From positions 1 to 64,000 of the forward strand of contig NZ_JAFFZE010000003.1 of assembly GCF_025165815.1 (NCBI RefSeq): a DNA stretch of 64,000 bases. Direction: 5' to 3'. This stretch comes from Actinophytocola gossypii (GTDB lineage Bacteria; Actinomycetota; Actinomycetes; Mycobacteriales; Pseudonocardiaceae). The notes under the pieces are model-generated. The model worked only from the letters and a program-made list of their open reading frames with translations, was not told the origin of the DNA and ran no database searches. How positions within the stretch are numbered: position 1 is the stretch's first letter; each line of letters starts with the position of its first letter. Of this stretch, positions 8,691-25,337 are shown in pieces. Both the position numbers and the translations under genes were made by a program.

Positions 8691-10097
8691 TTACTCGGCC
8701 TCGTAGTCGCGCCACCACTTCTGCCCGGCCTCCGGGAGCGTGGCGATCGGGTCGTAGTACGGGTAGCGGCGGCTCAGCGCGTCCGGGTCGTCGTGCTCGA
8801 TGCCGGTGCGGTAGTTCTTCGTCCAGTACGAGACGCCGCGCTCCCGGTCGTAGTCGGCGAGCTGGTGCACCCACCGCTTGCCGACGTACGGGACGTCGCA
8901 GATGATCCGCGGCGTGGCGTACCCGGGCAGGTAGCCCATGATCCCGTGCTGGAGCTGCTGGGCCTCCCACACCGCGACCCGCCAGTGCTCGGCGTTGGGG
9001 ATCATGTCGCACATGTAGAAGTAGTACGGCAGGATGTTCGCCTCGCCCTGCAGCGCGAAGCACAGGTCCAGCAGGTCGTCCGGGGTGGCGTTCACGCCGC
9101 GCATCAGCACGCCCTGGTTGCGGACGTCCCGCACGCCGACCTCCAGCGCGGTGCGGGCGGCCTCGGCGACCAGCGGGGTGACCGACTGGGCGTGGTTGAC
9201 GTGGGTGTGGATGGCCAGGTTGACACCGCGCCGACCGGCCGTGCGGGCGACCCGCTCCAGGCCCTCGACGACCTTGGGCTGCAGCCAGTGCTGCGGCAGC
9301 CCGGCGAGCGCCTTGGTGGCGAGCCGGATGTCGCGGACGGTGTCGATGTCCAGCAGCCGCATCAGGAACGCCTCGAGCTGGTGCCACGGCACGTTCGCGA
9401 CGTCGCCACCGGAGACCACGACGTCCCGCACGCCGGGGGTGCGCCGCAGGTAGTCGATCATCCTGTCCTGGCGGTCGACCGGCTTGAGCGTGAGCTTGTG
9501 CTTGTCGACCTGCTCGGTGGAGTTGCCGACCAGGTCCATCCGGGTGCAGTGGCCGCAGTACTGCGGGCAGGTCGACAGGAGCTCGGCCAGCACCTTGGTG
9601 GGGTAGCGGTGGGTCAACCCCTCGACGACCCACATCTCCGCCTCGTGCAGCGAGTCCCGCGAGCTGTGCGGGTGGTTCGGCCAGTCCGGGTCCCGGTCGC
9701 TGGCGACGGGGAGCATGTACCGGCGGATCGGGTCGGCCAGGAACGCGCTCGTGAACGAGCCCTCCGCCGACGGCACCATCGTGTTGAGCATCTGCGGCGG
9801 CAGCAGCATCGACATCGTGGCCAGCCGCCGCTGGTCGTCGAGCAGGTCGTCGTAGAACGACTCGTCGAGCAGGTCACCCATCACCGCGCGGAGCTGCTTG
9901 GCGTTCTTCACGCAGTGCACCCGCTGCCACTGCGCGTCGCGCCACTGGGCCTCGGTGACGTCCCGCCAGCCGGGGAAGCGGCGCCAGTCGGGCTCGACCA
10001 GCTCCCGCCGGACGTACTCGTACGGTTGCCGCGCGGTCTCGTCGACTGCCTCGGAGACTGTCGTGGCGGCGGTGGCCACGTCATGCAGCGCCGTCAT
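8691..10097 (-). CDS. kamA: Lysine 2,3-aminomutase-family radical SAM enzyme
   Basis: 468 residues. The radical-SAM cluster motif CPQYCGHC places Cys177, Cys181 and Cys184. Lys407 in DVPYVGK is the expected PLP lysine. Lysine 2,3-aminomutase converts L-lysine to L-beta-lysine using a [4Fe-4S] cluster, SAM and PLP. ATG 10097 follows GAGGAG. The gene diverges from the kdd operon, which encodes later steps of the same route, across an 84-bp intergenic region that must hold both promoters. A mutase acting on another amino acid (for example glutamate) is possible, but the neighbours favour lysine. Confidence 0.88.
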   Translation of the reverse strand: MTALHDVATAATTVSEAVDETARQPYEYVRRELVEPDWRRFPGWRDVTEAQWRDAQWQRVHCVKNAKQLRAVMGDLLDESFYDDLLDDQRRLATMSMLLPPQMLNTMVPSAEGSFTSAFLADPIRRYMLPVASDRDPDWPNHPHSSRDSLHEAEMWVVEGLTHRYPTKVLAELLSTCPQYCGHCTRMDLVGNSTEQVDKHKLTLKPVDRQDRMIDYLRRTPGVRDVVVSGGDVANVPWHQLEAFLMRLLDIDTVRDIRLATKALAGLPQHWLQPKVVEGLERVARTAGRRGVNLAIHTHVNHAQSVTPLVAEAARTALEVGVRDVRNQGVLMRGVNATPDDLLDLCFALQGEANILPYYFYMCDMIPNAEHWRVAVWEAQQLQHGIMGYLPGYATPRIICDVPYVGKRWVHQLADYDRERGVSYWTKNYRTGIEHDDPDALSRRYPYYDPIATLPEAGQKWWRDYEAE

Positions 10098-10181
10098 CTG
10101 TTCTCCTCGCCGGTAGGGTTGCGTAAAGATATGCTGCCAGATGCTTGTATCGACGTAAATCCTACGGGAGTGGGTGGTTGG

Positions 10182-11213
10182 GTGTCCTCTTCGGCGTATG
10201 GGCTGCACCGCGTGGTGGAACCGGCGGGGGTGCTGCCGCAGCAGGCGTGGCGGCTGTCCACGGACGACCGCCTGTGGCCGGACGAGGTGCTGGTCGACGT
10301 CGCCCGGCTCAACCTCGACGCCGCGTCCTACCGGCAGCTGCGCGAGCGGCACGGGTCCCCGGACGCGGTGCGGTCGGCGGTGCTCGGGATCGTCGAGGAG
10401 CGCGGGAAGATGCACAACCCGGTCACCGGGTCGGGCGGCATGCTGCTCGGCACGGTCCGCGAGGTCGGCCCCGAGTCCCCGCTGGGCCTGCGGGTGGGGG
10501 ACCGGATCGCGACCCTGGTGTCGCTGACGTTGACCCCGCTGCGGATCACCGACGGGCTCGCCGGCTGGTCGGGCGAGGGCGAGCAGGTGCCGTGCCGGGG
10601 GACCGCGGTGCTGTTCGGCCGGTCGATCGCCGCCCGCCTGCCCGACGACCTGCCGGACGGGCTCGCGCTGTCCGTGCTGGACGTGTGCGGCGCGCCCGCG
10701 CTGACCGACCGCGTGGTGCGCGACGCCGGACCGGGGTCCTCGGTGCTGGTCCTCGGCGGTGGCGGCAAGTCCGGAAGCCTGTCGCTGGCGGCCGCGCGCC
10801 GCGCCGGCGCCGACCGGCTGGTCGCGCTGGTGCCGACCGACACCGAGGCCGACGCGGTGCGCGCCGCCGGCCTGGCCGACGAGGTGCTGGTCGCCGACGC
10901 CCGGGACCCCGTCGCCGTCGCCGACACCGTGGGCGAGCAGGTGGACGTGACCGTGGTGTGCGTGGACGTGCCGGGCTGCGAGCACGGCGCCGTGCTGGCC
11001 ACCGCGGACGGCGGCACGATCGTGTTCTTCTCGATGGCCACCTCGTTCTCCGCCGCCGCGCTGGGCGCCGAGGGCCTGGCGGCGGACGTGCGGATGCTGG
11101 TCGGCAACGGGTACGTGCCCGGCCACGCCGAGTTCGCGCTCGACCTGCTGCGCACGGTCCCAGGGGTTCGCGAGCTGTTCGACCGACGCGAACGGCACAC
11201 TGCCTCGACATGA
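10182..11213 (+). CDS. kdd: L-erythro-3,5-diaminohexanoate dehydrogenase
   Basis: 343 residues. An N-terminal segment (YGLHRVVEPAGVLPQQAW) is typical of Kdd. A Rossmann domain follows with a glycine-rich VLVLGGGGKSGSLSL loop near 190-205. The enzyme oxidatively deaminates 3,5-diaminohexanoate to 5-amino-3-oxohexanoate with NAD(P)+, after lysine 2,3- and 5,6-aminomutases have acted. GTG 10182 is chosen because GGGAG lies about 11 bases upstream; GTG 10170 is an in-frame alternative. Its stop overlaps the next gene's ATG (ATGA), so it is translationally coupled and heads the kdd-amidohydrolase-kamD-kamE-kal operon. Confidence 0.88.
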   Translation: MSSSAYGLHRVVEPAGVLPQQAWRLSTDDRLWPDEVLVDVARLNLDAASYRQLRERHGSPDAVRSAVLGIVEERGKMHNPVTGSGGMLLGTVREVGPESPLGLRVGDRIATLVSLTLTPLRITDGLAGWSGEGEQVPCRGTAVLFGRSIAARLPDDLPDGLALSVLDVCGAPALTDRVVRDAGPGSSVLVLGGGGKSGSLSLAAARRAGADRLVALVPTDTEADAVRAAGLADEVLVADARDPVAVADTVGEQVDVTVVCVDVPGCEHGAVLATADGGTIVFFSMATSFSAAALGAEGLAADVRMLVGNGYVPGHAEFALDLLRTVPGVRELFDRRERHTAST

Positions 11214-12646
11214 CCACCCTGTTCACCGGTGCCCGGATCCACGGCTCGTCCGCGACCGCGTTCGCGGTCACCGACGGAGTGCTCTCCTGGATCGGCGCCG
11301 ACTACCCCGGCACCCCCGGCGACGTGGTGGACCTGGACGGCGCGCTGGTGGCGCCCGCGTTCGTGGACGCCCACGTGCACGCCACCGCCGCCGGTCTGCT
11401 GCGCACCGGCCTGGACCTCACCGCCGCCACCCGCGTCAGCGACGTGCTCGACGCCGTCCGCGACCGCGCCGAACCGGGGGCGTTGCTGTGGGGCCACGGC
11501 TGGGACGAGACCGCGTGGCCGGAGAACCGGCCCCCGACCCGCGAGGAACTGGACACCGTCGCCGGCGGCGTTCCGGTGTACCTGTCGCGGATCGACGTGC
11601 ACTCGGCGTTGGTGTCGTCCGCGCTGGTCGACCTCGCGCCCTCGGCGCGCACCGCGGCCGGCTGGTCGGACACCGGCCCACTCGCCCGCGACGCGCACCA
11701 CCACGTGCGCCGTGCCGCCCGCGCGTCCATCGCGCCCGGGCAGCGGCGGGCGGCGCAGCACGCGTTCCTGCGGCACGCAGCGTCGATGGGCGTGGCGTGC
11801 GTGCACGAGTGCGGCGGCCCGGACATCTCCGGCCGCGAGGACTTCGACGACCTGCTCACCCTCGACACCGGTGTCGAAATCGTCGGGTACTGGGGTGAGC
11901 GCGGCGTGCGGGTGCCCGGCGCGCGCGGGCTGGCCGGAGACCTGTTCGTCGACGGCGCGTTCGGCTCCCGCACCGCCGCGCTGCACGAGCCCTACACCGA
12001 CGCACCGGACACCAGCGGCGCCCGCTACCTCGACGCCGAGCAGATCGCCGCCCACCTGGTCGCCTGCACCGAGACCGGCACCCAGGCCGGGTTCCACGTC
12101 ATCGGCGACGCCGCCGTCGCCGAGGTCGTCGACGGGTTCCGGCGCGCCGAGAAGATCGTGGGGGAGCGGGCACTGGTCACCGCGCGGCACCGGCTCGAGC
12201 ACCTGGAGATGGTCACCGCCGAGCAGGCCGACGAGCTGGCCCGGTTCGGGGTGGTCGCGTCGGTGCAGCCGCTGTTCGACGCCGCCTGGGGCGGCCAGGA
12301 CGGCATGTACGCCCGCCGGCTCGGTGCCCGCGCCGCCGCCCTGAACCCGTTCGCGACGCTCGCGGCCGCCGGGGTGACGCTGGCGTTCGGGTCCGACACC
12401 CCGGTCACCCCGGTCGACCCGTGGGCCACGATCCGCGCCGCCGTGCACCACCGCACCCCCGGCTCCGGCATCGACGAGACGGCCGCGTTCGCCGCGCACA
12501 CCTCGGGCGGCCGCGCCGCCGCCCGCGACCCCTGGACCGGCGAACTCACCGTCGGCGCGCCCGCCACGTTCGCGGTGTGGCGCGACCAGACCTGCCTGCG
12601 GACCGTACGCAACGGACAGACGATCCACGAGGTGCCCCTGACATGA
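11210..12646 (+). CDS. YtcJ-like metal-dependent amidohydrolase within the lysine operon
   Basis: 478 residues, amidohydrolase superfamily (amidohydrolase_3/YtcJ group). The metal-site motif HVHAT follows FVDA near residue 54. Further signatures are FHVIGDAAV, the HRLEHLE histidines, and FGSDTPVTPVDPW near the C-terminus. It would hydrolyse a C-N bond of a cyclic or acylated amine. It overlaps kdd upstream and kamD downstream (ATGA at both junctions), so it is embedded in the lysine-degradation operon. This is unexpected: the step after Kdd is normally done by Kce, which is absent here. Whether the amidohydrolase is part of the pathway is inference; the substrate is unknown. Confidence 0.88.
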   Translation: MTTLFTGARIHGSSATAFAVTDGVLSWIGADYPGTPGDVVDLDGALVAPAFVDAHVHATAAGLLRTGLDLTAATRVSDVLDAVRDRAEPGALLWGHGWDETAWPENRPPTREELDTVAGGVPVYLSRIDVHSALVSSALVDLAPSARTAAGWSDTGPLARDAHHHVRRAARASIAPGQRRAAQHAFLRHAASMGVACVHECGGPDISGREDFDDLLTLDTGVEIVGYWGERGVRVPGARGLAGDLFVDGAFGSRTAALHEPYTDAPDTSGARYLDAEQIAAHLVACTETGTQAGFHVIGDAAVAEVVDGFRRAEKIVGERALVTARHRLEHLEMVTAEQADELARFGVVASVQPLFDAAWGGQDGMYARRLGARAAALNPFATLAAAGVTLAFGSDTPVTPVDPWATIRAAVHHRTPGSGIDETAAFAAHTSGGRAAARDPWTGELTVGAPATFAVWRDQTCLRTVRNGQTIHEVPLT

Positions 12647-14208
12647 CGCTGCTTGGCCTGGACCCCGAGGTGGTCGCGACCGCCCGCCGGCTCGCCGCCC
12701 GCGCCGCCGAACCGGTCGTGTCGATCGCGAAGGCCCACACCACCGTCGCCGTCGAGCGCGCGACGCTGCGGCTCGCCGGCATCACCGGCGCCGACACCGG
12801 CCACCGCGCCGGCGACGTGCCGTGGGTGAACCGCGTCGTCGACACCGTCCGCGACCACTGCGGCCTCGACCACGGCGTCGTCCTGCCCGCGTTCCACGCG
12901 CTGCGCGAACACGACCTCGGCTCGCTGACCGAACTCGCCGAGGCCACCGCCGCCGGCCAGATCCAGTACCGGATCCCCACCGGCCGCGCCGCCGACCGCG
13001 CCGCCAGGACCGGGCACACCGCCATCGCGAAGGGCCTGCGCACCGTCGACCGCAACCGCGCCCAACGCGACAAGCTCGTCACCCGCTTCGGCAACCCCCC
13101 GCGCCGCCCGTGGATCTACCTGATCGTCGCCACCGGCGACATCGACGAGGACGTCGTGCAGGCCGCCAACGCCGCCCGCGCCGGCGCCGACATCATCGCC
13201 GTCATCCGCTCCACCGGGCAGTCCCTGCTGGACTACGTGCCAGAAGGCGCCACCCACCACGGGTTCGCCGGCACCTACGCCACCCAGGAGAACTTCCGGA
13301 TCATGCGCGCGGCGATGGACGACGTGTCCAAGGAGGTCGGCCGCTACATCCGCGTCACCAACTACGCGTCCGGGCTGTGCATGCCCGAGATCGCCGTGCT
13401 CGCCGGCCTGCAACGCCTGGACATGATGCTCAACGACTCCATGTACGGCATCCTGTTCCGCGACATCAACCCGATCCGCACGTTCGTCGACCAGCGGTTC
13501 TCCCGCCAGGTCCACGCCCGCGCCGGCATCGTCATCAACACCGGCGAGGACAACTACCTCACCACCGCCGACGCCGTCGACGCCGCGCACACCGTCACCG
13601 TGTCCCAGCTGCTCAACGAGCACTTCGCGCACGAGGCGGGCCTGCCGGACGAACTGCTCGGCCTCGGGCACGCGTTCGAGATCAACCCGGCGGTGCCCGA
13701 GTCGTTCCGGCTCGAACTCGCGCACGCCCTGTTGGCCCGCGAACTGTTCCCCGACGCGCCGCTGAAGTGGATGCCGCCGACCAAGCACATGACCGGCGAC
13801 GTGTTCGCCGGCTACCAGCTCGACGGGTTCTTCAACCTCGCCGGTGTCCTCACCGGACAGTCGATCCTGCTGGTCGGCATGATGACCGAGGCCGTGGTGA
13901 CCCCGTTCCTGTCCGACCGAGACCTCGCGCTGCGCAACGTCCGCTACGTGCTGGACGCCGCGTCCGGGCTGGCCGAGGACTTCCGGCCCGCCCCGGACGG
14001 GTTCATCGTCAAACGCGCCCACCAGGTCCTCGGCGAGGCCGTCGACCTGCTGGACCGGATCGTGCGCGACGGCCTGCTCGACGCGATCGCCGACGGCACC
14101 TTCGGCCTGATGAAACGCCCACCGGACGCCGGGAAGGGCGCCGACGGCGTGATCGCCAAGGCCGACGGCTACCGCAACCCGGCCGCGGACCTGCTGGAGG
14201 GCAAGTGA
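12643..14208 (+). CDS. kamD: Lysine 5,6-aminomutase alpha subunit
   Basis: 521 residues, full length for the alpha (large) subunit of D-ornithine/lysine aminomutase. Recognisable blocks include KGLRTVDRNRAQRDKLVTRF, TGQSLLDYVPEG, TYATQENFRIMR and MPPTKHMTGDVF. Together with the beta subunit and adenosylcobalamin plus PLP it moves the terminal amino group of beta-lysine from C6 to C5, giving 3,5-diaminohexanoate. The ATG overlaps the amidohydrolase stop. Its own stop overlaps the GTG of kamE (GTGA), as expected for subunits made in equal amounts. Confidence 0.95.
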   Translation: MTLLGLDPEVVATARRLAARAAEPVVSIAKAHTTVAVERATLRLAGITGADTGHRAGDVPWVNRVVDTVRDHCGLDHGVVLPAFHALREHDLGSLTELAEATAAGQIQYRIPTGRAADRAARTGHTAIAKGLRTVDRNRAQRDKLVTRFGNPPRRPWIYLIVATGDIDEDVVQAANAARAGADIIAVIRSTGQSLLDYVPEGATHHGFAGTYATQENFRIMRAAMDDVSKEVGRYIRVTNYASGLCMPEIAVLAGLQRLDMMLNDSMYGILFRDINPIRTFVDQRFSRQVHARAGIVINTGEDNYLTTADAVDAAHTVTVSQLLNEHFAHEAGLPDELLGLGHAFEINPAVPESFRLELAHALLARELFPDAPLKWMPPTKHMTGDVFAGYQLDGFFNLAGVLTGQSILLVGMMTEAVVTPFLSDRDLALRNVRYVLDAASGLAEDFRPAPDGFIVKRAHQVLGEAVDLLDRIVRDGLLDAIADGTFGLMKRPPDAGKGADGVIAKADGYRNPAADLLEGK

Positions 14209-14951
14209 AACGACACGTCCGCCCGTACGGCGACACCACCGGCGACGGCATGGTGCAGGTGTCGTTCACGCTGCCCGTGCCACCCGGCCCCAAGGCCGAG
14301 GGCGCCGCGCTGCAACTGGCCGCCAAGATGGGGCTCGACCCGGCGATGGTCGTGCACTCGCACGGCATCGGCGGCGACTTCACGTTCTTCGTCGTCTACG
14401 GCTCCGCCACACACATCGTCGACCTGGACGCCGTCGAGGTCGTCGAGCGCGAATACCCGCTGCTGTCCCCGGCCGAGGTCAACGGCGTGCTGCGCAAGCT
14501 GTTGCGGCGCAAGCTGGTCGTGGTCGGCGGCTGCATCGGCACCGACGCGCACACCGTCGGCATCGACGCGATCCTCAACATCAAGGGCTTCGCCGGCGAG
14601 AAGGGCCTCGAGTACTACCGGGAGCTGCGCGTGGTCAACCTCGGCGCCCAGGTCACCGTGCCCGAGCTGGTGAAACGCGCCCGCGCCGAGAAGGCCGACG
14701 CCGTGCTGGTGTCCCAGGTCGTCACCCAGCGCGACGCGCACATCCTCAACACCCAGGAGATGTCCGCGGCGTTCCGGGAGGCGATGGGCGACCGCCGCCC
14801 CGTGCTCGTCGCCGGCGGGCCGCGGTTCGACCCGCTGATGGCCGGTGAACTCGGCGTGGACCGGGTGTTCGGCCGGGGCACCACCCCCGGCGAGGTCGCC
14901 TCCTACCTCGTGCACGCACTGCGGACCGCCCAACCAGAAGGAGCAACATGA
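14205..14951 (+). CDS. kamE: Lysine 5,6-aminomutase beta subunit (B12-binding)
   Basis: 248 residues. The cobalamin motif D-x-H-x-x-G is present as TDAHTVGID; its histidine replaces the lower axial base of B12. Eleven residues on, INIKG supplies the lysine that forms the PLP aldimine, the same His-to-Lys spacing as in the clostridial enzyme (His133/Lys144). The B12 Rossmann fold continues to the C-terminus. It pairs with KamD. The GTG start overlaps the kamD stop, and its stop overlaps the ATG of kal. No B12 riboswitch is evident upstream of the operon. Confidence 0.95.
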   Translation: MKRHVRPYGDTTGDGMVQVSFTLPVPPGPKAEGAALQLAAKMGLDPAMVVHSHGIGGDFTFFVVYGSATHIVDLDAVEVVEREYPLLSPAEVNGVLRKLLRRKLVVVGGCIGTDAHTVGIDAILNIKGFAGEKGLEYYRELRVVNLGAQVTVPELVKRARAEKADAVLVSQVVTQRDAHILNTQEMSAAFREAMGDRRPVLVAGGPRFDPLMAGELGVDRVFGRGTTPGEVASYLVHALRTAQPEGAT

Positions 14952-15343
14952 GCCTGACCGTCGGGTTCTCCGTCACCCACCGCCGGTACGTGCCGTACGC
15001 GCACGCCCACTACGGCGGGAACCTGGTGGACGGCGCGTACGGGCTGGCGCTGTTCGGGGACGTGGCGACGGACCTGTCGATCCACACCGACCGCGACGAG
15101 TCGCTGCTGGCCGGCTACTCCGACGTCGAGTTCCTCGCCCCGATCCAGGCCGGTGACGTGGTCGAGGTGACCGCCACCCTCACCAGGGTCGGCACCCGCT
15201 CCCGCGACATCGCGTTCGAGGCGCGGGTGCTGTGCCGCGCCGCACCGGAACGCGGCCCGTCCGCCGCCGACGTGCTCGACCCGCCGGTCGTCGCCACCCG
15301 CGCCAACGCGACCGTCGTGGTACCCACCGCCGCCAAGGACTGA
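14948..15343 (+). CDS. kal: 3-aminobutyryl-CoA ammonia-lyase (hotdog fold)
   Basis: 131 residues, a single hotdog domain. The N-terminal HRRYVPYAHAHYGGNLVDGA and the AGYSDVEFLAPIQAGDVVEV core match Kal from lysine-fermentation clusters. Kal removes ammonia from L-3-aminobutyryl-CoA to give crotonyl-CoA. It is last of the tightly overlapped operon; a 92-bp gap separates it from the acyl-CoA-ligase fusion. Kal implies that 3-aminobutyryl-CoA is made here, so a Kce activity should exist elsewhere in the genome or be replaced. Confidence 0.88.
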   Translation: MSLTVGFSVTHRRYVPYAHAHYGGNLVDGAYGLALFGDVATDLSIHTDRDESLLAGYSDVEFLAPIQAGDVVEVTATLTRVGTRSRDIAFEARVLCRAAPERGPSAADVLDPPVVATRANATVVVPTAAKD

Positions 15344-15435
15344 CTTCCACATTCCGGGACGAGGTCTTGCTCCGAATGGAGCACGCTGCTAGTAAAGCTA
15401 GCTCTGGGCGTTCGCCCCCGCGGACGGAGGAGCTC

Positions 15436-17469
15436 GTGTCGGCAGACCTGGTCGAAGTGGCCGCGACGCTCGACCACCCGCGCGACCGGCTGTGGGCCGC
15501 GGTCAACGACATCGAGTCCTACCCCAGGTTCGTCCGCGAAATCTCCTGGTCCCAGCGCTCAGGTGGGGAACGAACCGGCGCGGGCACGCACTACGACGTG
15601 CGGTTCACCGTCGACCAGGGCCCGGTCGCCCGCCACGACGTGGAGATCCTGGTGCACCGCCCGCCCGACCACCTGGTCGCGGTCAGCCGGCACTGGCCAC
15701 GCGGACACGTCGCCGTCCGGCTGACCGCGCTCGCGCCCGAGCGGACCGAGCTGGAGCTGACGATCTCGCTGCCCCGCACCCGCCACCCGACCGCGGTCAC
15801 CGCCGGCTGGCTGCGCAAACGCGCCCGGCACGCCATCGCGCTGCTCGACGCCCGCCTGTCCGGCACCGTCACCGACCGCCTGGACCAGGCCTCGACCCCG
15901 CAGTCCCAGCTGGCGGTCGCGAAGATCCTCACCCGCGCCGGGGTGCTCGCGGCGGGCCGCCCGGACCGGCTGGTGCGGCAGCTCAACGCGCTCACCCGGT
16001 GGGGCGCCACGGTCGCCGGCGGCTACCAGGCCGCGTTCGCCCGCACCCCGCACGAACGGGCCATCACCGACGACCTCGGCGAGCTGACCTTCGCCGACGT
16101 CGACACCCGCACCACCCGGCTGGCGAACGGGCTGACCGACTACGGGGTGCGGCAGGGCAGGCGGGTGGCGCTGATGTGCCGCAACCACGGAGCCCTGGTG
16201 GAGTCGCTGATCGCGTGCGGCAAGCTCGGCGCGCACACGCTGCTGCTGAACACCGGTCTGTCCGCCGCGCAGGTCACCGACGTGGTGCACGGCCACCGCC
16301 CGGCCGCGCTGCTGCTCGACGAGGAGTTCCTGCCGCTGACCGCCGGGCTGCCGCGCGGGCTCCCGAGGATCAGCACCTGGGGCGGCGACGAACCGTCCGT
16401 CGACGGCCTGATCGAGCAGGCGCCGGCCGACCGGGTGCGGCCACCCACCGCCCCCGGCAAGATCATCGTGTTGACGTCGGGCACCACCAGCAACCCGAAA
16501 GGCGCCCGCCGCCGCAACCCGCACGGCCTGCGCACCGCCGCGGCGGTGCTGTCCAGGATCCCGCTGCGCGCCGGCGAACGCATGCTGGTCGCCGCGCCCC
16601 TGTTCCACACCTGGGGCCTCGCGGCACTGCAACTGGGGATGCCCCTGCACGCGCAACTGGTCCTGGCCCGCCGGTTCGACGCCGAGTCGACGCTGCGGCT
16701 GATCGAGGAACACCGCGCCACGTCCCTGTTCGTGGTGCCGATCATGCTGCAGCGCATCATGGACCTGCCGCCACAGGTGATCCGCAACTACGACACCTCG
16801 TCGCTGCGGGTCGTCGCCAGCAGCGGCTCACCGCTGTCCGGGCGACTGGTCACCTCCGTCCTCGACCAGTTCGGCGACGTCCTCTACAACCTCTACGGAT
16901 CCACCGAGGTGTCCTGGGCCAGCATCGCCGACCCCGCCGACCTGCGCGCGGCGCCCACCACCGCCGGCCGCTGCCCGATCGGCACCCGCGTCGGCATCCT
17001 CGACGCCGACGGCGACCCCGTGCCGCCCGGCGAGGTCGGCCGCATCTGCGTCGGCAACGACATGCTGTTCGAGGGCTACACCGGCGGTGGCACGAACCCC
17101 GTCTACGGCGACCTGATGGTGACCGGCGACCGCGGCTACCTCGACGCCGACGGCCGGCTGTTCGTCTCCGGCCGCGACGACGACATGATCATCTCCGGTG
17201 GGGAGAACGTGTTCCCGCGCCCGGTCGAGGAGCTCCTGGCGACCCTGCCGCAGGTCGCCGACGCCGCCGTCGTCGGCGTGCCGGACCGCGAGTTCGGCCA
17301 GCGGTTCGCCGCCTACGTGGCGCTGCGTCCCGGCGCGACCCTCACCGAGGCGGCGGTACGCGAGTACGTCCACGACCACCTACCCCGGTTCGCCGTTCCC
17401 CGCGACGTGGTGTTCGTGGACTCCTTGCCGCGCAACGCGACCGGCAAGGTACTGCGCCGCCTGCTCTAG
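15436..17469 (+). CDS. SRPBCC domain fused to an acyl-CoA synthetase (AMP-binding)
   Basis: 677 residues. Residues about 1-150 form an SRPBCC (polyketide-cyclase/START-like) domain: DHPRDRLWAAVNDIESYPRF is the typical first helix-loop. Residues about 200-677 form an ANL-superfamily ligase with the phosphate loop [12 protein letters not shown], the motif YGSTE, the hinge TGDRGYLDADGRLFVSGR and the C-terminal catalytic lysine in NATGKVLRR. It would activate a fatty or aromatic acid through an acyl-adenylate to its CoA ester; the SRPBCC part may bind a hydrophobic ligand. GTG 15436 follows GGAGGAG. It may use a promoter in the 92-bp gap after kal. Confidence 0.88.
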   Translation: MSADLVEVAATLDHPRDRLWAAVNDIESYPRFVREISWSQRSGGERTGAGTHYDVRFTVDQGPVARHDVEILVHRPPDHLVAVSRHWPRGHVAVRLTALAPERTELELTISLPRTRHPTAVTAGWLRKRARHAIALLDARLSGTVTDRLDQASTPQSQLAVAKILTRAGVLAAGRPDRLVRQLNALTRWGATVAGGYQAAFARTPHERAITDDLGELTFADVDTRTTRLANGLTDYGVRQGRRVALMCRNHGALVESLIACGKLGAHTLLLNTGLSAAQVTDVVHGHRPAALLLDEEFLPLTAGLPRGLPRISTWGGDEPSVDGLIEQAPADRVRPPTAPGKIIVLTSGTTSNPKGARRRNPHGLRTAAAVLSRIPLRAGERMLVAAPLFHTWGLAALQLGMPLHAQLVLARRFDAESTLRLIEEHRATSLFVVPIMLQRIMDLPPQVIRNYDTSSLRVVASSGSPLSGRLVTSVLDQFGDVLYNLYGSTEVSWASIADPADLRAAPTTAGRCPIGTRVGILDADGDPVPPGEVGRICVGNDMLFEGYTGGGTNPVYGDLMVTGDRGYLDADGRLFVSGRDDDMIISGGENVFPRPVEELLATLPQVADAAVVGVPDREFGQRFAAYVALRPGATLTEAAVREYVHDHLPRFAVPRDVVFVDSLPRNATGKVLRRLL

Positions 17470-22506: not shown

Positions 22507-24093
22507 GTGGTCACACCTGCGGTCAAGCCGGACGAACCGGCCGTGTCCGACGAACCGGTAGCACCCGCCCCGCGTCGGCAGGCGCTGGTCGCGGTGCTCG
22601 TCCGGGTCGTCGCCGCCCTCGGCGCGGGCGTGCTGCTCTTCCTGTCCGGGCCGCCCCGCACGCTGTGGTGGCTCGCCCCGATCGCGTTCGCCGTCCTCGG
22701 CTGGGTGCTCGTCGGCCGCCGGGCCCGCGCCGGGTTCGGTTACGCGCTGTGCTTCGGCCTCGGCTACATGGTGCCGCTGCTCGCCTGGACCGGGGAGTTC
22801 GTCGGCGCCGTGGCGTGGCTGCCGCTCAGCGCGGCCGAGGCGCTGCTGGTCGCGTTGCCCGGTGCCGCGATCGCGGTGGTCACCCGGCTCCCGGCCTGGC
22901 CGGTGTGGGCCGCGTTGCTGTGGGTGGCGGGGGAGACGCTGCGCTCGCTGTTCCCGTTCGGCGGGTTCCCCTGGGGCAACGTCGCGTTCACCCAACCGGA
23001 GGGCGTCTACCTGCCGCTGGCCACCGTCGCCGGCACCCCGCTGATCGCGTTCGCCGTCGCCCTGACCGGGTTCGGTGCCGCCGCGCTGGCCCGCCGGCTG
23101 CTGGACCGGGACCGCACGGTCCGCCGGCTCCTCGCCCCGGCGCTGGCCACCGTCCTGCCGGTCGCCGCCGCGTTCGGCGCCATCCCGCTGGTCGGCACGG
23201 ACGCGAACGACGGGACCGCGGTGGTCGCGATCGTGCAGGGCAACGTGCCGCGCGCCGGCCTGGACTTCAACGCCCAGCGCCGCGCCGTGCTCGACAACCA
23301 CGCCGCCCGCACCCAGGAACTCGCCGACGACGTCGCCGCCGGCCGCGCCGAGCAGCCCGACCTGGTGATCTGGCCGGAGAACTCCTCGGACATCGACCCG
23401 TTCCGCAACCCCGACGCGTGGGGGCGCATCGAGAGCGCCGCGCAGGCCATCGACGCGCCGATCGCGGTCGGCTCGGTGCTGGTCGGCGACGACGGCCGCG
23501 GCCGCAACACCGTCCTGCTGTGGGACCCCGAGCAGGGCCCGGTCGACCAGTACACCAAGCGCAAGCTGCAGCCGTTCGGCGAGACCATGCCGTGGCGGGA
23601 GTTCTTCGGGCTGTTCACCTCGTTCGCCGACCGCGCCGGGGACTTCGTGCCGGGGACCGAGCCGGTCGTGTTCGGGATGGGCAACGCCAGGGTCGGCCTG
23701 GCGACCTGCTACGAGGTGGCGTTCAACGGCGTGGTGCGGGAGTCGGTCGAGGGCTCGAACCTGCTCGCCGTGCCCACCAACAACGCCACGTTCGGCTACT
23801 CCGAGATGACCTACCAGCAGCTGGCGATGGACCGGGTTCGGGCCGTCGAACACGGCCGCAGCGTCGTGGTGTCGGCCACCAGCGGGGTCAGCGCGTTCGT
23901 CCGCCCCGACGGCTCGGTCAGCCAGCAGAGCGGCATGTTCACCGACGCGGCCCTGGTCGAACGGGTGGCGCTGCGGTCGACGACTACGCTGTCCGATCGA
24001 CTCGGTTCGAGCCCCGAGTGGGTCCTCTCACTCGCCGGGCTCGCCGCGCTGGCCGCCGCGATCGTCATCCGCCGACGCGCCCGCGCCAGCTAG
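22507..24093 (+). CDS. lnt: Apolipoprotein N-acyltransferase
   Basis: 528 residues. An N-terminal membrane domain with about six to eight helices is followed by a nitrilase-fold catalytic domain. The catalytic triad is visible: Glu in [10 protein letters not shown], Lys in [11 protein letters not shown], Cys in LATCYEVAF. Lnt adds the third acyl chain to the N-terminal cysteine of lipoproteins. The start GTG has TACCCT six bases upstream, so the message is probably leaderless. The gene lies 34 bp before the mannosyl-phospho-polyprenol synthase, the usual Lnt-Ppm1 pairing (a single fused protein in some mycobacteria). Confidence 0.95.
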
Positions 24094-24127: not shown

Positions 24128-24898
24128 ATGGCTGTGGCAGACCAGCTCGAGCCGGTGCTGGTGGTGATCCCGACCTACAACGAGCGGGACAACATCGAAC
24201 CCATCGTCACCCGGCTGCACGCGGCGCTGCCGAAGGTGCACGTCCTGGTGGTCGACGACGGCAGCCCGGACGGCACCGGCGACATCGCCGACGAGCTGGC
24301 GAAGGCGGACGCCGAGTCCGGCGGGGGCCGGGTGCACGTCATGCACCGGACCGAGAAGAACGGCCTGGGCGCCGCCTACGTCGCCGGGTTCCAGTGGGGC
24401 CTGGAGCGCGACTACGCGGTGCTGGTCGAGATGGACGCCGACGGCTCGCACGCCCCGGAGGACCTGCCGCGGCTGCTGGACGCGCTCACCGACGCCGACC
24501 TGGTCATCGGGTCCCGCTGGGTGCCCGGCGGCCGGATCGTCAACTGGCCGGTGTCCCGGCAGCTGATCTCCCGCGCCGGGAACCTGTACTCGCGGATGGC
24601 GCTTGGCGCGAAGGTGAAGGACATCACCGCCGGGTTCCGCGCGTACCGGCGGGAGGCCCTGGAGAAGATCCGGATCGACAACGTCGCCTCGCAGGGCTAC
24701 TGCTTCCAGATCGACCTGGGCTGGCGCACCATCGAGGCCGGGTTCACCGTGGTCGAGGTGCCGATCACGTTCACCGAGCGGGAACGCGGCCAGTCGAAGA
24801 TGAGCGGCGACATCATCCGCGAAGCCCTCATCCGGGTGACCAAGTGGGGCCTGCGTCGCCGAGGCAACCAGGTCCGGTCCCTGCTCGGCAAGCGGTAA
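24128..24898 (+). CDS. ppm1: Polyprenol monophosphomannose synthase
   Basis: 256 residues, family-2 glycosyltransferase of the DPM1 type. [12 protein letters not shown] starts the nucleotide-binding fold, [12 protein letters not shown] follows, and the metal-binding acidic motif is [20 protein letters not shown] is the usual C-terminal motif. It transfers mannose from GDP-mannose to polyprenol phosphate; the product is the sugar donor for extracytoplasmic mannosyltransferases, such as the two MptB-like proteins at 49.5-52.5 kb and protein O-mannosylation. ATG 24128 follows GAGGAG. A strong bidirectional hairpin follows the stop. Confidence 0.95.
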
Positions 24899-24992: not shown

Positions 24993-25337
24993 TTACGCGC
25001 TGCGGCTGCGCCGCACCTTCAGCTCCTGCAGGCGCTCGGCCAGCAGGTCCTCCAGCTCCGGAATGCTCCGGCGCTCGAGCAGCATGTCCCAGTGCGTGCG
25101 CGGCGGCTTCACCTTCTTCGCCTCCGGCTCGGTGCCGTCGATCAGCTTGGAAGCGGTGCCGTGCAGGCGACACTCCCAGACCGCCGGGACCTCCGCGTCG
25201 TCGGAGAAGGGCACCTCGAACTCGTGGTCCTTCGGGCACGCGTAACGGATGGTGCGACGTGGCGCGAGGTCGTGATTGCGGTCGGTCTCGTAGCTGACCG
25301 CGCCAAGTCGGCTTCCACGGAGTACACGGTCGGCCAT
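24993..25337 (-). CDS. rbpA: RNA polymerase-binding protein RbpA
   Basis: 114 residues. N-terminal MADRVLRGSRLGAVSYETDR, a zinc-binding core with YACPKDHEFEVPF and WECRLHG, the basic linker KKVKPPRTHWDMLLERR and the C-terminal sigma-interacting helix ELEDLLAERLQEL are all present. RbpA binds sigma factor and RNA polymerase and stabilises open promoter complexes in actinobacteria. ATG 25337 follows GAAAGGA. A promoter matching the SigR consensus lies about 60-90 bp upstream, as described for rbpA in Streptomyces. Confidence 0.97.
   Translation of the reverse strand: MADRVLRGSRLGAVSYETDRNHDLAPRRTIRYACPKDHEFEVPFSDDAEVPAVWECRLHGTASKLIDGTEPEAKKVKPPRTHWDMLLERRSIPELEDLLAERLQELKVRRSRSA

Follow-up and report, generated by a model that had tools for sequence, protein, structure and literature searches.

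In Actinophytocola gossypii (order Mycobacteriales), a cluster of lysine aminomutase (kam) genes includes amh, a gene for a YtcJ-like amidohydrolase, between kdd and kamD. The cluster lies in the 64,000-nucleotide stretch analyzed here and called the window (contig NZ_JAFFZE010000003.1, positions 1 to 64,000; contig 15 of the 7.38-Mb genome). The cleavage enzyme Kce is very probably encoded on another contig, and Amh is a probable orthologue of the epsilon-lysine acylases (ELAs) of Streptomyces. We therefore favor, as the probable reading of the locus, a complete aminomutase pathway whose Kce is encoded outside the operon and whose substrate comes from an initial step in which Amh releases lysine.

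The aminomutase pathway looks complete, with Kce unlinked

The gene kamA (positions 8691 to 10097, minus strand) is divergent from kdd, amh, kamD, kamE, and kal, all on the plus strand. The kdd gene, for a predicted L-erythro-3,5-diaminohexanoate dehydrogenase, begins at a GTG at 10170 or an ATG at 10131 and ends at 11213. It is followed by amh (11210 to 12646; 478 amino acids; PF07969, 251.4 bits), kamD (12643 to 14208), kamE (14205 to 14951), and kal, for a predicted 3-aminobutyryl-CoA ammonia lyase (14948 to 15343). The presence of the five pathway genes, as read in the initial annotation, was confirmed: curated NCBIfam cutoffs were passed by Kdd (NF052381, 255 bits; cutoff, 200), KamD (NF052384, 676 bits; cutoff, 600), KamE (NF052385, 343 bits; cutoff, 280), and Kal (NF052388, 180.7 bits; cutoff, 160). 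The 468-residue product of kamA, a predicted radical SAM lysine 2,3-aminomutase of the KamA family, had L-lysine 2,3-aminomutase 2A5H as its sole PDB match, with Asp aligned to both D293 and D330 of 2A5H.

The lysine 5,6-aminomutase gene kamD was detected in 94 of 298 genomes sampled from the order (93 above the family cutoff), leaving 204 kamD-less genomes, and 93 kam loci of the order were fetched. The gene was rarer in a sample of the phylum (above the cutoff in 15 of 396 genomes), from which the kamD loci read outside the order were those reached by name. A further set of named kam loci consisted of the best 80 of at least 577. Among the matches listed, the nearest named relative by KamD was Actinophytocola xanthii (91% identity).

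Kce had been reported missing from the pathway, and that claim was not upheld. The genome contains a single BKACE gene, on contig 51 (G000:C51:356358-357182; PF05853, 309.8 bits; cutoff, 24.8), the product of which has Kce 2Y7D as its best PDB match. The GAE, HxH, and GGAV stretches of the two proteins align, and the GAE stretch that they have in common is missing in 3no5 and 3chv. An orthologue scoring at least 360 bits was present in 94 of 94 kamD-bearing genomes of the order (at least 65% identity) and in 1 of 204 kamD-less genomes (G219, 63%); these counts are not corrected for relatedness, and the 360-bit line was drawn after the list was seen, just below the lowest kamD-bearing genome (366 bits). 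Weaker matches in four more kamD-less genomes (G178, G150, G083, and G022; 275 to 323 bits, 56 to 63% identity) may be leftovers or relatives with another use. A match was also found in all 26 of the named kam genomes searched (58 to 92% identity, the highest being that of A. xanthii at 92%). On the strength of the contig-51 gene and these orthologues, we reject the absence of Kce from the genome.

Nor is the proposal that amh stands in the position of kce supported, since kce of Glycomyces sits by kamA and not between kdd and kamD. The genes kce and kamA adjoin in both named Glycomyces and in all seven order genomes of one group (g56). At other kce loci the slot often follows a ygfZ-like gene, with ygfZ in view at 11 of 13 fetched loci and an rsiG gene at 7 of 13. 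One locus in G178 (L209) has a kdd-kal-kce cluster (51, 52, and 58% identity) without kamD. We conclude that the contig-51 protein is very probably Kce and that, judged by gene content, the lysine aminomutase pathway looks complete in this genome, with Kce unlinked.

amh is a probable orthologue of the Streptomyces epsilon-lysine acylases

A study of the Streptomyces griseus acylase SgELA (EC 3.5.1.17) gives the metal ligands as H76, H78, H330, H365, and D431, with H177 as a further residue (Haeger and others, PMC10699109). According to the same study, SgELA is active on N-epsilon-acetyl-lysine and inactive on every N-alpha-acyl amino acid tried, and the homologous SmELA counts among the YtcJ-like enzymes (PMC10699109). 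Identities among published ELAs, as far as the parts of the sources consulted report them, run from 75.6 to 93.6% (at least 75.6% in PMC10699109; over 80% in a review).

Five residues of Amh, H55, H57, H296, H331, and D396, are near-invariant. All five ligands are present in the window protein at a spacing of 241/35/65, close but not identical to the 254/35/66 of SgELA. ELAs have no carboxylated Lys as a ligand; in an alignment of 33 Amh sequences, no Lys was found in the invariant or near-invariant columns.

The comparison with the acylases was made through orthologues from a genus that we infer is Streptomyces, in which amh matches occurred in 120 of 121 genomes at an E value of ≤0.001 and were strong (E ≤ 1e-58, read by hand) in 118 of 121. 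The 30 best-scoring loci of the 120 all had ppm1 within their 1.5-kb flanks, and all carried the five ligands at the 35/66 spacing, five of them with the 254 spacing as well. When numbered from one of its actual start codons, locus L341 reproduced all six residue numbers printed for SgELA. Pairwise identities among the Streptomyces-like orthologues (68 to 95%) bracket the published ELA range. None of three paralogues from the same genus fit the ligand spacing (32/66, 32/66, and 31/68), and the fingerprint therefore discriminates in this small test, which comprised those three paralogues and three paralogue pieces of A. gossypii itself. The window protein is 56% identical to that of L341. Its structure was predicted confidently, with a predicted local distance difference test (pLDDT) score of 95.8; a fold search with it returned only remote amidohydrolases and did not discriminate function. 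Its nearest solved structures by sequence and fold, the uncharacterized Pyrococcus metal-dependent hydrolases 3ICJ and 3IGH, are only 26 and 23% identical to it in the fold alignment.

We conclude that amh is a probable orthologue of the Streptomyces ELAs and that its product most likely releases L-lysine from N-epsilon-acyl-lysine. The apparent orthology of amh with these acylases lends support, by homology only, to the suggestion that the amidohydrolase supplies the pathway with lysine from an acylated form. By gene order, Rv2052c of Mycobacterium tuberculosis, for which 3IGH is reported as a structural match, is a candidate for a further orthologue.

amh occupies an old chromosomal site with and without kam genes

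In kam-bearing relatives, amh was at the kam cluster in 84 of the 93 order loci (8 were without it, and 1 contig was too short to judge) and in 54 of the 80 named loci (24 were without it in view, and 2 were too short). Conservation of the amidohydrolase in related kam operons, which the initial annotation had left to be checked, was thus found, and the gene order kdd-amh-kamD is kept in several families. The genes that flank these clusters recur too: lnt was in view after the kam cluster in 74 of 93 order loci, and lnt, ppm1, or rbpA was in view at 70 of 80 named loci. The window has all three, namely, lnt, for a predicted apolipoprotein N-acyltransferase (22507 to 24093, plus strand; PF20154, 97.2 bits), a ppm1-like glycosyltransferase gene (24128 to 24898, plus strand; PF00535, 116.5 bits), and, as the outer flank, rbpA (24993 to 25337, minus strand; PF13397, 149.2 bits).

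The same neighbors were seen where kam genes are lacking. Among 20 kam-less amh loci, hand-picked across families from strong matches, ppm1 lay within 5 kb downstream in 19 and lnt in 17; one locus (L162) showed neither. Moreover, in the seven genomes of group g56, amh is at the lnt-ppm1-rbpA site and the kam cluster is elsewhere. Confinement of amh to kam operons is ruled out by strong matches in 174 of the 204 kamD-less order genomes. We conclude that amh has long had its place in the chromosome next to lnt-ppm1-rbpA.

Traces of kam genes were found at some kam-less sites. In six kam-less genomes (L168 to L173), a kamA gene (83 to 85% identity) is divergent to amh, with no kdd, kamDE, or kal in view, and two kam-less genomes keep an inverted kal (63 to 64%). 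The lone kamA and the inverted kal look like remnants. In a tree of 73 Amh sequences, drawn from 161 by thinning on locus number, kam-bearing and kam-less rows were mixed; the kam label required 8 changes, at least 6 of them forced by starred branches, and was clustered by lineage. We note that the record titled Rhodococcus rhodnii NRRL B-16535 (L218) groups tightly with Kibdelosporangium in amh, so that its label may be wrong.

Named clusters with kam genes and no amh in view included those of Nocardioides (12 of 13 loci with that title), Terrabacter (2 of 2), Humibacillus (2 of 2), and the one Knoellia. Whole-genome searches of 14 such genomes, given below, lead us to reject a requirement of the pathway for amh. 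Separately, in genome G176 (C2:70860-72265), amh of the operon falls into two reading frames, whereas the kam genes gave ordinary hits; this may reflect a real loss or a sequencing error.

Proposed route and alternative explanations

In the route that we propose, Amh would hydrolyze N-epsilon-acyl-L-lysine to L-lysine and a carboxylic acid, and KamA would convert L-lysine to beta-lysine. KamDE would then form 3,5-diaminohexanoate, and Kdd would oxidize it to 5-amino-3-oxohexanoate. Kce, supplied from contig 51, would react that product with acetyl-CoA to give 3-aminobutyryl-CoA and acetoacetate, and Kal would yield crotonyl-CoA. Each enzyme, Amh included, would have to be active as named in this organism, and Amh and the kam products would have to act jointly. 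The joint reading is favored because the product of the acylase, L-lysine, is the substrate of KamA and because several families have retained kdd, amh, and kamD in this order. A more specific version, which we put forward tentatively and hold somewhat less likely than its negation, is an actinobacterial salvage of acyl-lysine: lysine freed by the acylase, for example in the turnover of acylated proteins, would be passed to the cotranscribed aminomutase pathway and end as crotonyl-CoA and acetoacetate.

Several observations weigh against the proposed route, some of them touching the identity of its enzymes. KamA scored below its curated cutoff (TIGR03820, 154.8 bits; cutoff, 525.4) and is, by sequence, a remote KamA-family protein distant from the clostridial enzyme. 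The contig-51 protein was likewise below the cutoff of the Kce equivalog (NF052387, 277.8 bits; cutoff, 382), and the case for Kce therefore rests on orthology. As for Amh, the window protein has 478 amino acids, compared with 538 to 548 in the Streptomyces-like loci numbered as SgELA, and at 56% identity its specificity may be shifted relative to that of the ELAs. A His at residue 177 was found in just 6 of 30 Streptomyces-like loci and so is no conserved part of the fingerprint, 29 of the 30 lack a start codon where SgELA numbering would need one, and the name Streptomyces for the genus of these loci is our own assignment.

Other observations concern how closely amh is tied to the pathway. 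Strong matches to amh (E ≤ 1e-58, counts read by hand) were present in 93 of 94 kamD-bearing and 174 of 204 kamD-less order genomes (267 of 298); the position of amh was read in 20 of the 174. Since amh is common in kamD-less genomes, its adjacency to kam genes may be historical. Conversely, whole-genome searches of 14 named genomes with an amh-less kam cluster found no close amh in any of the 14 (13 had weak matches only, the best at an E value of 1.7e-24, and 1 had none); control genomes with amh at the locus gave matches of 49% (L240) and 46% (L262). The pathway therefore does not need amh. Finally, the overlaps on both sides of amh, emphasized in the initial annotation, are real in the window, where each of the junctions kdd/amh, amh/kamD, kamD/kamE, and kamE/kal is a 4-base overlap. 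Across loci, with start codons chosen by script, such overlaps were less frequent at the amh junctions (kdd/amh, 41 of 126; amh/kamD, 53 of 136) than at kamD/kamE (112 of 165) and kamE/kal (140 of 163), and the overlaps around amh therefore tell nothing special. In amh-less clusters, kdd/kamD overlapped by 4 bases at 15 of 28 junctions, and packing is thus tight without amh too.

The main rival to the proposed route is that amh, whether or not it encodes an ELA, has its home at the lnt-ppm1-rbpA site and serves a separate function there, that the kam genes came to lie around it, on either side, and that the overlaps are ordinary packing. This explanation is favored because there are amh-less kam genomes without a close amh and kam-less genomes with amh, and it fits the presence of amh at the site without kam genes, with ppm1 near in 19 of 20 kam-less loci, 7 of 7 g56 genomes, and 30 of 30 Streptomyces-like loci. 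The repeated changes of the kam label in the tree, although clustered by lineage, and the equal packing of amh-less operons point the same way. We nevertheless consider it unlikely, roughly a one-in-four prospect in our judgment: what the probable enzyme releases is the substrate of the pathway, several families keep the kdd-amh-kamD order, and six kam-less genomes have retained, of the kam genes, only a kamA divergent to amh.

Alternatively, Amh could act in repair or salvage on an acylated intermediate, such as N6-acetyl-beta-lysine or an N-acyl-3,5-diaminohexanoate. The position of amh within the operon agrees with such a role, as do the six kam-less genomes with only kamA beside amh, as if KamA and Amh could cooperate. 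This seems to us improbable, however, as no kamA was in view at 14 of 20 kam-less amh loci and SgELA was described for N-epsilon-acetyl-lysine. Least probable is the original proposal of a variant pathway, in which Amh would open a lactam of 5-amino-3-oxohexanoate or replace Kce: operon position and membership in the amidohydrolase superfamily speak for it, but both ideas lose their basis because the pathway looks complete, with a Kce orthologue in 94 of 94 kamD genomes, and because amh is lacking by nature in certain genomes that do carry kam genes (14 named genomes with amh-less clusters were searched, and none has a close amh), is common without kam, and resembles an epsilon-lysine acylase.

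A conserved element between kamA and kdd, and genes after kal

An 18-base element, GTAAAGATATGCTGCCAG, lies in the divergent promoter region between kamA and kdd (10123 to 10140, plus strand), with a CGTAAAT box after it. When as many as 3 mismatches were allowed, the element was found in 21 of 80 named loci and in 10 of 92 order loci; these 10 all belong to the family of the window locus, f1 (10 of 11 fetched f1 loci), in which it is kept. The element stays by kamA in Lentzea, whose kamA is apart from kdd. GTAAAGATATGCTGCCAG is possibly an operator. No second exact copy was found in the genome, and a search at 3 mismatches gave a single further site, as many as a backwards control. Near kce, the element was found at none of 14 and none of 20 loci. 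Of the idea that a kce elsewhere might share the regulation of the kam genes, the first half is borne out, kce being elsewhere and co-occurring with kamD (94 of 94 versus 1 of 204 genomes); control of kce by the same local element is not.

Directly after kal, a gene on the plus strand (15376 to 17469) encodes a predicted SRPBCC-like domain fused to an acyl-CoA ligase similar to FadD2 and FadD12. The N-terminal SRPBCC-like domain is weak (21.5 bits; cutoff, 23.4), and a similar gene (62 to 65% identity) also follows kal in Actinokineospora loci. In Micromonosporaceae (e.g., L037, 11512 to 12846) and in g56 and Glycomyces clusters, a MutL-family gene (PF13941), possibly for a reactivating factor, follows kal; none was seen in the 64-kb window or in the other f1 loci read.

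Relation to known systems

The closest known enzymes are the Streptomyces acylases SmELA, ScELA, SamELA, and SgELA (EC 3.5.1.17), which like Amh are YtcJ-like metal-dependent amidohydrolases with five metal ligands, the last of them spaced 35/66 (35/65 in Amh), and the Streptomyces-like orthologues adjoin ppm1 as amh does in kam-less relatives. Unlike them, Amh is shorter, 56% identical to the best-fitting orthologue (L341), the comparison being with orthologues and not with the ELA sequences themselves, and encoded within a kam operon, a setting that the accessible parts of the ELA sources do not mention. Compared with clostridial lysine fermentation (KamA, KamDE, Kdd, Kce, and Kal), the genome has a candidate gene for all five steps but differs in its unlinked Kce, its remote KamA, its presumably aerobic host, and the acylase-like gene in the operon. 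In Candidatus Cloacamonas, too, the locus of a lysine pathway includes an unusual gene; there, Kat replaces Kal (PMC3149608). Here kal and kce are both present, and therefore nothing is replaced. Limited searching, which is no proof of absence from print, found no literature link between an epsilon-lysine acylase and lysine aminomutase genes.

We conclude that the locus apparently represents a known and complete pathway with a dispersed gene and a probable added lysine-releasing enzyme, and no Kce-less variant. A false gap is thereby corrected, as Kce is not missing, and an unexplained gene becomes a testable step. The interesting part is the link between an acylase and lysine catabolism. If true, it would give a physiological role to the YtcJ-like epsilon-lysine acylases, which the accessible parts of the literature have so far treated as biocatalysts, and to an amidohydrolase with strong matches in most genomes of the order (267 of 298) and of the Streptomyces-like genus (118 of 121). 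If the salvage of acyl-lysine in particular holds, it would supply a natural role for the industrially studied ELAs and would explain why kam genes gathered round amh.

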